DNA of 14,690 nucleotides. Source: Candidatus Nitrosopumilus sp. (GTDB lineage Archaea; Thermoproteota; Nitrososphaeria; Nitrososphaerales; Nitrosopumilaceae). A program made the position numbers and the translations under genes. The stretch covers positions 1-14,690 of the forward strand of contig JAEMQG010000070.1 of the NCBI GenBank assembly GCA_022758935.1. The letters run 5' to 3'. The notes beneath the pieces are model-generated. The model was given only the letters and a program-made list of their open reading frames with translations, had not been told where the DNA came from and searched no databases. Position 1 is the stretch's first letter; each line of letters opens with the position of its first letter. Below, one piece after another: positions 13,453 through 14,690 of this stretch.

Positions 13453-13800
13453 GTGCTTGGTAGAATAAACATCAATGTTTCTGCAATAGATTATGATAAT
13501 ACAAGTAAGGCATTAGAACATCAGTTGATGCTTTTAGAGGAGATGGTTCATGGCAAAGAGGATTTTGTCATGACAGATTCGGAATTTGCGTTTGGATGGC
13601 ATTTCTTTGTTGTCAGTGTAAACAAATCATTGGTAGAAAAATTAGTCGATCAGATGGGTTTGGATTTTGATAGATTGAAAGGAAAGGGCATGGAAAAGAA
13701 ATTTCTCACATGGCTTTCATCAAAGTTAGAGGGCAAAACCTCTAGATTCAAACTGGCTATCAAAGAAGAGATGGAATCAAGCAAATACGGTATTTTTTAA
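13453..13800 (+). CDS. Hypothetical protein, 115 residues
   Basis: I do not recognise the family. The protein begins from a GTG codon placed 24-25 bases after a TATA-like element. It has an N-terminal beta-like segment (GRININVSAIDYD), a helix (SKALEHQLMLLEEMV), an aromatic middle strand (EFAFGWHFFVVSVNK, about 44-58), and a basic helical C-terminus (FLTWLSSKLEGKTSRFKLAIKEEM). No cysteines, metal motif, signal peptide or membrane helix is present, so a small cytoplasmic alpha/beta protein is likely. Base composition matches the neighbours. The stop lies 10 bases before the 3' end of the convergent tRNA-His gene. The run of six T at the end of the coding frame may also serve in termination. 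Confidence 0.75.
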   Translation: MLGRININVSAIDYDNTSKALEHQLMLLEEMVHGKEDFVMTDSEFAFGWHFFVVSVNKSLVEKLVDQMGLDFDRLKGKGMEKKFLTWLSSKLEGKTSRFKLAIKEEMESSKYGIF

Positions 13801-13810
13801 AACCATTATG

Positions 13811-13883
13811 GGCCCTCGAGGGTAATCGAAACCCTGTCCGGGGATCCACAGTCCCCTATACTAGCCACTGTACTACGAGGGCC
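13811..13883 (-). tRNA. tRNA-His (anticodon GTG), with encoded G-1
   Basis: A 73-nt tRNA on the minus strand. Acceptor strands GCCCTCG (13882-13876) and CGAGGGC (13818-13812) pair fully. G at 13883 is position -1 and C at 13811 is position 73, the G-1:C73 identity pair of tRNA-His. The anticodon arm GGGGA / CTGTGGA / TCCCC gives anticodon GTG. The D arm is GTAC/GTAT. The T arm is AGGGT-TTCGATT-ACCCT, so the usual G53:C61 pair is U53:A61. There is no intron, and CCA is not fully encoded. A possible TATA element, ATTATTA on the minus strand, lies at 13910-13916. Confidence 0.93.
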
Positions 13884-13950
13884 ACAAGAATAAAAAATTG
13901 TTTGTCCTGTAATAATCTTTGATTTAATTCAGTGAATATTAGCCTCTAGA

Positions 13951-13958
13951 TTTATTAT
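13951..13958 (+). promoter_or_regulatory. TATA box for the 26-residue membrane peptide gene
   Basis: TTTATTAT, centred at 13954.5, is 25-26 bases before the ATG at 13980, the optimal distance for a leaderless archaeal gene. Short inverted arms TAACTA (13959-13964) and TAGTTA (13975-13980) lie between the box and the start. Confidence 0.6.
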
Positions 13959-13979
13959 TAACTAGTGTTAATTTTAGTT

Positions 13980-14060
13980 ATGAGACTATGGTGGATAGCT
14001 ATGGCAATAGCAATTGGACTCACTTGGGTTGGCGCTAATTACCTGATTCCATGGAAGTAA
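13980..14060 (+). CDS. Small membrane peptide, 26 residues, unknown function
   Basis: A short open frame, ATG at 13980 to TAA at 14058-14060, encodes 26 residues. It begins MRLWWIAMAIAIG and ends with GANYLIPWK. Residues about 4-23 form one unbroken hydrophobic stretch long enough to cross a membrane, with R2 and K26 as charged flanks and four tryptophans at W4, W5, W16 and W25, two near each end or the middle, as in interfacial aromatic belts. A TATA element 25-26 bases upstream of the ATG fits leaderless expression. There is no other gene in this gap. I do not recognise the peptide; it might be a small accessory subunit of a membrane complex, but this is only a suggestion. Confidence 0.6.
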   Translation: MRLWWIAMAIAIGLTWVGANYLIPWK

Positions 14061-14107: not shown

Positions 14108-14131
14108 AAATTTAGCGAACGCTTTAAATTT
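14108..14131. repeat. Inverted repeat overlapping the corA promoter
   Basis: The order is AAATTT, AGCG, AA, CGCT, TT, AAATTT. The core AGCG-AA-CGCT is a perfect inverted repeat with flanking AAATTT on both sides. It overlaps the probable BRE/TATA region of the transporter gene, a position where a dimeric regulator could block or aid initiation. Confidence 0.45.
14123..14130 (+). promoter_or_regulatory. Probable TATA box for the CorA-type transporter gene
   Basis: TTTAAATT, centred at 14126.5, is about 28 bases before the TTG start at 14155. A second AT-rich stretch, TATATTA at 14134-14140, is too close to that start for a leaderless transcript. Confidence 0.5.
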
Positions 14132-14154: not shown

Positions 14155-14690
14155 TTGAGGAAAGGATTCATCACTAGTCGTCTACATGTAGGAAAAAAAT
14201 CCATAGAAACACCCATTGAAAAAAAGATAGAGACTTTTCAAGGTAAGGAATTTTTATGGATTGATTTACAAAGTCCAGATAGAAGTGATATTGAAAAATT
14301 AGCCGAACAATATCATTTCAATGCATTAAACATTGAAGACTGTATGACTAAATTTGAGCTTCAGAAATTAGATAGTTATGATGACCATTTCTTTGTAATA
14401 TTACATTTTCCGCCACTTGTTCAACAGGTTAAAATTTCAAAAAATAGTCAGCTCTCCATATTTGTAGGGAAAGATTTTCTAGTAACTGTTCATCAAGGAG
14501 ACTTGAAACCATTAGTGGATTTAGTAAATATTTGTAAAAATGATTCTGATCAACATAGAAAAGAAAGGTTACTTGGAAAATCATCTGGATTTTTGCTTCA
14601 TGAAATAATAGATATTCTGGTAGATGATCTCATGCACATATCAAGAAGGGTAATTGCTAATTTAGATGATTTAGAAGTTGGAGTGTTTGA
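14155..14690 (+). CDS. corA: CorA-type magnesium/metal transporter (N-terminal part)
   Basis: The first 178 codons are visible and the frame is open to the end of the window. The N-terminal cytoplasmic domain of the CorA family is recognised from FLWIDLQSPDRSDIEKLAEQYH, LNIEDCMTKFELQKLDSYDDHFFVILHF, LSIFVGKDFLVTVHQG and, after a helical linker, FLLHEIIDILVDDL. The two C-terminal membrane helices and the GMN signature that define the pore are beyond the edge. CorA proteins move Mg2+, Co2+ or Ni2+ as pentamers. The start is TTG: an in-frame TAA stop occurs at 14125-14127 and no early ATG exists, and the promoter spacing fits. An inverted repeat lies on the promoter, so metal-responsive regulation is possible but unproven. 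Confidence 0.88.
   Translation, partial: MRKGFITSRLHVGKKSIETPIEKKIETFQGKEFLWIDLQSPDRSDIEKLAEQYHFNALNIEDCMTKFELQKLDSYDDHFFVILHFPPLVQQVKISKNSQLSIFVGKDFLVTVHQGDLKPLVDLVNICKNDSDQHRKERLLGKSSGFLLHEIIDILVDDLMHISRRVIANLDDLEVGVF

Follow-up and report, generated by a model that had tools for sequence, protein, structure and literature searches.

A conserved 26-codon membrane protein gene between tRNA-His and corA in ammonia-oxidizing archaea, with a possible link to copper electron transfer

The gap between tRNA-His and corA in the 14,690-nucleotide stretch of DNA analyzed here (the window) almost certainly holds a real gene, at positions 13980 to 14060, and its 26-residue product is very probably a single-pass membrane protein. 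Comparisons among related genomes show a conserved frame, purifying selection, a fixed promoter spacing, and independence from corA. Judged from fusions and gene neighborhoods in one related genus, the protein may belong, as an accessory subunit or docking helix, to the copper-based chain of ammonia oxidation and respiration, a reading of the whole that we regard as evenly poised. The window comes from a draft genome of 1.6 Mb, and the features that matter here are as follows.

13810..13882, minus strand: tRNA-His gene, the upstream neighbor of the peptide gene
13944..13950, plus strand: bases just upstream of the TATA element, CTCTAGA in the window and CTGTAGA in at least 48 of 93 relatives; presumably the position of a BRE
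13951..13959, plus strand: TATA-like element TTTATTATT; relative to the ATG, the first T lies 29 bases upstream and the center about 25
13980..14060, plus strand: 26-codon gene for the single-helix membrane protein MRLWWIAMAIAIGLTWVGANYLIPWK, stop codon TAA, identified by its conserved frame and pN/pS
14123..14131, plus strand: TATA-like element of corA itself, TTTAAATTT (GCGAACGCTTTAAATTT), 32 bases before the corA start
14155..14690, plus strand: corA (Mg2+ transporter family; PF01544, E = 2.6e-28), cut by the contig end and a separate unit from the peptide gene

The first-pass annotation had described a 26-codon frame from ATG to TAA in this gap, and the frame can be read directly, with the ATG at 13980 and the TAA at 14058 to 14060. 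As had also been described, the 26-residue product consists of a single hydrophobic stretch, with a maximum 19-residue Kyte-Doolittle mean of 1.62, and has four tryptophans and basic residues, R2 and K26, at its two ends. Taken simply as an ORF it does not stand out: the window contains 60 ATG-to-stop ORFs of 22 to 45 amino acids, 11 of which, the peptide frame included, reach a Kyte-Doolittle 19-residue mean of at least 1.6, and two of which, the peptide frame being one, encode at least four tryptophans. What raises it above chance is its conservation in all 18 same-genus genomes, a pN/pS of 0.20 to 0.26, and a fixed promoter distance; a chance ORF is ruled out by the conservation of the frame and the selection acting on it. 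Positions 13453 to 13800 encode a 115-amino-acid protein with no Pfam match, which belongs to a cluster of 23 members in 32 neighborhoods of up to 10 kb and has its nearest named relatives in Nitrosarchaeum MAGs.

A conserved frame in relatives had been proposed as a check on the gene, and we found one at both the genus and the family rank. In tblastn searches the peptide was present in 18 of 18 Nitrosarchaeum genomes, the window's own included, and in 15 of 19 genomes from other genera of the family at E ≤ 0.06. We then built a profile of 35 forms, with rows drawn from family genomes, and searched 300 genomes of the order, 132 of them from the family and 168 from outside it. The profile matched 117 of the 132 family genomes at E ≤ 5e-6. 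One further genome (G018) had a match at E = 0.03 that is supported by the expected neighbor nearby and by the same promoter motif, and 14 of the 132, among the genomes listed, were without a match to this profile. In a wider draw of 250 family genomes, many of them incomplete, 180 matched an earlier profile at E ≤ 1e-3, and the remaining 70 comprised 34 that matched only at E > 1e-3 and 36 without a match. Eight of the 34 weakly matching genomes belong to genus g9, in which a profile of long forms, described below, does find the peptide. Among the 20 of the 36 matchless genomes that were listed, the gaps fall mostly in g19 and in part of g12 (Nitrosopumilus). Genomes of only 0.8 Mb in g5 keep the peptide, so a small genome does not in itself predict that the peptide is missing.

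The proposed search for frameshifts among strains turned up one, and the frame is otherwise conserved. The exception (L060 in G023) has a one-base frameshift in the last third of an otherwise intact ortholog, either a sequencing error or decay. A second, divergent copy of the peptide was seen on a 10-kb contig of one Nitrosopumilus genome (L131 in G161). Around the gene for the 115-amino-acid neighbor, 40 of 80 named loci hold the peptide by pattern, and L203 holds a further form. Six of the 80 loci end within 750 bases of that gene. Among 15 others that we inspected, four have a clean tRNA-to-corA gap without the peptide, ten carry neither a tRNA nor a corA mark, and one carries a tRNA mark only; the latter 11 point to other surroundings.

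Across the 168 genomes outside the family, there was no match at E < 0.01 except on two short contigs of one MAG. Weak matches (E = 0.01 to 0.93) occurred in 34 of these genomes, and we regard them as chance. At the three loci that were read (L123 to L125), the matches fell within frames of 215 to 228 amino acids that are amidotransferase-like genes and were rejected as chance. The MAG with the two strong matches (G340, from another family) has two similar copies of the peptide locus (L126 and L127) on contigs shorter than 5 kb, with sequence that resembles that of genus g42; these are probably contamination by mixed-in contigs.

Selection on the frame was measured in orthologs gathered by a pattern search over 213 loci, 130 of which matched, giving 93 distinct sequences. 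In 33 independent pairs taken from the 69 of these forms that have 26 codons, pN/pS was 0.20, whereas the two alternative forward frames gave 0.69 and 1.72 and the reverse-strand frames anywhere from 0.35 to 1.60; in the peptide frame, 127.5 nonsynonymous changes were observed versus 219 (standard deviation, 6.2) expected when the same changes were scattered. Nine positions are fixed or constrained by the search pattern and by the restriction to 26-codon forms, which makes column invariance in this set partly circular. With those nine codons removed, pN/pS was 0.26, and 112 nonsynonymous changes were observed versus 181 (standard deviation, 5.7) expected. The bias toward synonymous changes that the first-pass annotation had proposed looking for is thus seen with or without the pattern-bound codons. 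At least one true form (L203) escaped the pattern, as did the long forms of g9 and g6. Among the 35 aligned forms of the profile, every one has W4 and M8, and G18 and P24 are each conserved at 90% or more. Conservation is not concentrated on one face of the helix (P = 0.29).

The promoter is conserved along with the frame. A TATA element had been placed 25 to 26 bases upstream of the ATG, in agreement with the center of TTTATTATT. In 93 of 93 distinct orthologs a TATA-like element, mostly TAGATTTATTATT, begins 29 to 33 bases before the start codon, and its first T lies exactly 29 bases before the start in 73 of them, a distance that is favored by our scan, which selects the site nearest to 28 bases. 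The element is legible even in G+C-rich genomes (L077, L079, and L115). Archaeal TATA-to-start-site spacing puts the expected transcript start at the peptide start codon, so a leaderless message is the simplest reading, and we suggest that the gene has a TATA promoter to itself, from which a message with little or no leader would be transcribed. Archaeal leaderless genes are recognized by a TATA element about 25 to 30 bases before the start codon, as is found here. Conserved frame, synonymous bias, and fixed TATA distance together bear out the idea of a very short membrane peptide gene with its own promoter of leaderless geometry. The added statement that several other genes in the window share this geometry fared less well. 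With one loose pattern, which misses other TATA forms, and with some starts uncertain, a site was found 27 to 32 bases upstream of three of ten other starts (13453, 6235, and corA) and nearer (13 and 18 bases) to two, and there was none at five; TATATAAT, visible before the UPF0147 gene, is one form that the pattern misses.

The position of the gene directly upstream of corA in the window raises the alternative that the peptide regulates corA, as a leader peptide or otherwise, or that it is a small protein that works together with CorA. Known small regulators of Mg2+ transport include corL-type leader peptides and MgtS/MgtR, and the peptide resembles them in being encoded by a short ORF upstream of an Mg2+ transporter gene and in having a single helix. 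It differs from them in having its own promoter and a transporter neighbor that is not conserved: in 32 neighborhoods, a CorA-like gene lies downstream in the same direction in 18, is convergent in 8, and is absent from 6. By eye, the convergent gene of L055 belongs to the same type as corA in the window, and those of L065 and L067 belong to a second CorA-like type. Neighbors in the six corA-less loci include what we take to be alcohol-dehydrogenase-like genes, Twy1-like genes, and genes for ribosomal protein L21e or TFE. Moreover, corA has a conserved TATA element of its own, which, among the co-directional cases listed, often reads GCGATCGCTTTAAATTT or nearly so. It is retained where the peptide gene is missing: in seven Nitrosopumilus genomes without a peptide match (L104 to L110), tRNA-His is followed directly by corA with the TATA element kept, as judged by eye. 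A cis-acting leader of corA is contradicted by these orientation counts and by corA's own promoter, and we consider a leader, regulatory, or partner role with respect to corA very improbable. At 14115 to 14131, and at the same place in relatives, a palindrome-like sequence GCGATCGC (GCGAACGC in the window) stands directly before the corA TATA element; it is a possible operator.

Genera g9 and g6 encode a longer ortholog of 39 to 42 residues that ends in a C-x-P-x-E...C segment and lies between the same outer neighbors. A profile built from these long forms alone also detects, at E = 1e-6 to 0.01, the short locus of many genomes that belong to other genera, with no match in the window's own genome at E ≤ 0.01. 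Two profiles that share no member (A1 and A3) matched each other with 97% probability (E = 4e-11).

We also detected about 18 further copies of the peptide helix in g9. Seven of them form the N-terminal anchor of a type 1 cupredoxin (L118, L119, L120, L285, L286, L287, and L296, the last with half of the helix masked), and PF00127 exceeded its cutoff in all four of the fusions that were scanned. Each of the seven fused cupredoxins has its best match in the second domain of the dicupredoxin that is encoded directly after COX1, with identities of 64 to 70% to that of G025 and 52 to 57% to that of G008, compared with 40 to 50% for the first domains; the fused domain in G217 is 81% identical to the protein from that genome's own oxidase cluster. 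A match to this copper domain was present in 32 of 38 genomes tested, in carriers of the peptide and in 9 of 12 noncarriers alike, and also in G037, which belongs to another family. Three more of the extra copies anchor beta-propellers, in proteins of 382 amino acids (L282, L283, and L284, of which L282 and L284 read the same), and these fusions carry an N-terminal helix plus a C-x-P-x-E..C segment like those of the peptide family. The two that were scanned gave a partial match, over its cutoff, to the Cytochrom_D1 propeller. These gene structures show that the helix has been reused in g9 as an anchor of copper proteins and propeller proteins. The occurrence of propeller fusions alongside cupredoxin fusions fits a general anchor.

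Three further g9 copies stand alone and lie about 160 to 360 bases from an extra amoA gene, tail to tail with it in G217 and G241 and upstream in the same direction in G222, where amoA is cut by the contig end. The post hoc probability of such placement by chance is 2e-6 to 7e-6 if the three cases are independent and 3e-4 to 6e-4 for two, figures that were computed for 17 copies, the recount being about 18. Two full-length amoA matches were found in each of five g9 genomes (G208, G217, G238, G240, and G241), and two amoA fragments each in G222 and G234. In the stretches read, neither amoX nor amoC stands beside the amoA copies of G217 (contig C31), G241 (contig C12), G208, G238, G240, and G232, and the extra amoA loci of the last four genomes have no peptide copy nearby. 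The g9 amoA copies without amoX or amoC (L289, L291, and L332 to L335) sit in varied neighborhoods.

At the main locus, by contrast with these g9 paralogs, linkage to amo or oxidase genes is nearly absent. Within 5 kb, a search of ORFs of at least 70 amino acids with seven queries gave no match to AmoABCX, COX1, CuA, or dicupredoxin in 31 of 32 genomes; the sole match was an amoC gene 4.2 kb from the peptide gene in G027. In that genome (genus g11; L068), an amoA match lies about 43 kb from the peptide gene, on the same contig as the nearby amoC. Co-occurrence did not discriminate either, with COX1 and AmoA found in carriers and noncarriers: of 21 carriers tested, 19 had COX1 and all 21 had AmoA, and of 12 noncarriers, 9 had COX1, 9 had AmoA, and each had at least one of the two. 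Two single-contig noncarriers, G035 and G115, have both. Given the 9 of 12 noncarriers with COX1 and the 9 of 12 with AmoA, the peptide is not needed for AMO or the oxidase; gene content indicates that it is dispensable, since several small-genome lineages without it keep amoA and COX1.

We speculate that the peptide partners with the copper electron transfer chain, through either AMO or the heme-copper oxidase, and we place this a little short of an even chance because of the propeller fusions, the lack of a conserved helix face, and the single genus (g9) on which the link is based. In these archaea, the electron route that connects ammonia oxidation with the terminal oxidase is unsettled. 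By the positive-inside rule, a basis for orienting membrane helices, and from the position of the fused cupredoxins at the C-terminal end, the N terminus would be inside and the C-terminal PWK end outside. The free helix could then be an accessory or docking subunit that packs against AMO or against the heme-copper oxidase and its dicupredoxin. In the g9 fusions, the same helix would hold the oxidase-type copper domain at that complex. The first-pass annotation had suggested an overlooked subunit or regulator; the fusions and neighborhoods of one genus lend indirect support to this suggestion, and the subunit role itself is putative.

Alternatively, the peptide could be a small membrane protein with a general, nonrespiratory role, related to lipids or stress or acting as a generic anchor, with the g9 fusions being the product of routine domain shuffling that placed a copy of a convenient signal anchor ahead of secreted domains. 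We lean against this possibility but take it seriously. It would account for the fusion of the helix to two unrelated outer domains, the general lack of AMO or oxidase neighbors at the main locus, the absence of the peptide from genomes that keep amoA and COX1, and the lack of a conserved helix face. On the other hand, the helix is under selection as a free peptide, its invariant W4 and M8 and nearly invariant G18 and P24 are more than a generic anchor needs, a single oxidase-type copper domain recurs in 7 of the approximately 18 extra copies, and 3 of the copies adjoin amoA. We favor an accessory or docking helix over a generic anchor because selection acts on the free helix and because g9 has put it to use a second time, to tether an oxidase-type copper domain in the membrane. 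A more specific version of the docking proposal is rather unlikely in our estimation: the peptide might be a dedicated docking helix of a copper electron relay, a free subunit in most genera, fused as a cupredoxin anchor in one, and duplicated with extra amoA, marking a physical bridge between AMO and the terminal oxidase.

Neither Pfam nor NCBIfam contained a family that scored over its cutoff for the peptide, and the subthreshold names were DUF1003 (E = 0.052), CoxIIa (0.064), KGW_Acineto (3.3e-5), and PRK11638 (0.13). Among the matches listed, we found no description of the peptide in the literature on AMO structures, leaderless starts, small membrane proteins or ORFs, and oxidase small subunits. 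The peptide could conceivably be a small terminal oxidase subunit equivalent to CoxIIa (PF08113), subunit IIa of ba3 cytochrome oxidase, which likewise has about 30 residues and one helix. The g9 fusions, which pair the helix with a copper domain of the oxidase cluster, would agree with such an equivalence, as would the single member of 18 that touches PF08113, at the E value given above. However, none of 61 family genomes had a match over the PF08113 cutoff (matches reached down to E = 0.018), profile matches to solved structures all had E > 1 with no oxidase small subunit among them, and the peptide gene is not beside COX1 in the oxidase clusters read. There is also no similar small transmembrane ORF beside COX1 in L298 and L299, the sequence within 5 kb of the main locus contained no COX1 in any of 32 genomes, and COX1 is kept where the peptide is missing; we therefore consider equivalence to CoxIIa improbable.

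The membrane complex composition of ammonia-oxidizing archaea (AOA) is still being worked out, and AmoX, AmoY, and AmoZ have been described as extra membrane subunits of archaeal AMO (PMC10030591). According to the available portion of that study, AmoY and AmoZ are proteins of about 10 to 13 kDa that are conserved throughout the AOA and, in streamlined genomes, lie in linkage with amo genes, and the Nitrososphaera viennensis genome was screened for proteins with one to three helices that are conserved across all AOA (PMC10030591). As described there, such an AOA-wide filter would not catch a family-limited 26-mer. The peptide resembles AmoX, AmoY, and AmoZ in being a small helical membrane protein of ammonia-oxidizing archaea with some g9 copies adjoining amoA. 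Unlike AmoY and AmoZ, as far as that text describes them, it is about 3 kDa and family limited, is missing from several small genomes, and has a main locus that is not linked to amo. Presence in all ammonia oxidizers is not its pattern, as nine of the 12 tested noncarriers have amoA, and linkage to amoABC amounts to the one amoC among the 32 main loci and the three g9 paralogs beside extra amoA, with four extra amoA genes lacking one. A conserved 26-residue helix with ties to an oxidase copper protein and to amoA gives studies of native complexes a small and specific candidate to search for. More broadly, fixed TATA spacing combined with family-wide conservation can recover real genes of fewer than 30 codons from archaeal intergenic gaps.

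The remaining named resemblance is to the KGW motif small protein of Acinetobacter (NF040911). The window's own peptide has no match to this family and no KGW, and the best scores, 21.6 bits among members and 23.1 bits in five genomes, compare with a cutoff of 35 that none of the five genomes passed. Five of 18 members match it, the best at the subthreshold E value listed above, and some of them start with MKGKGW before the single helix.
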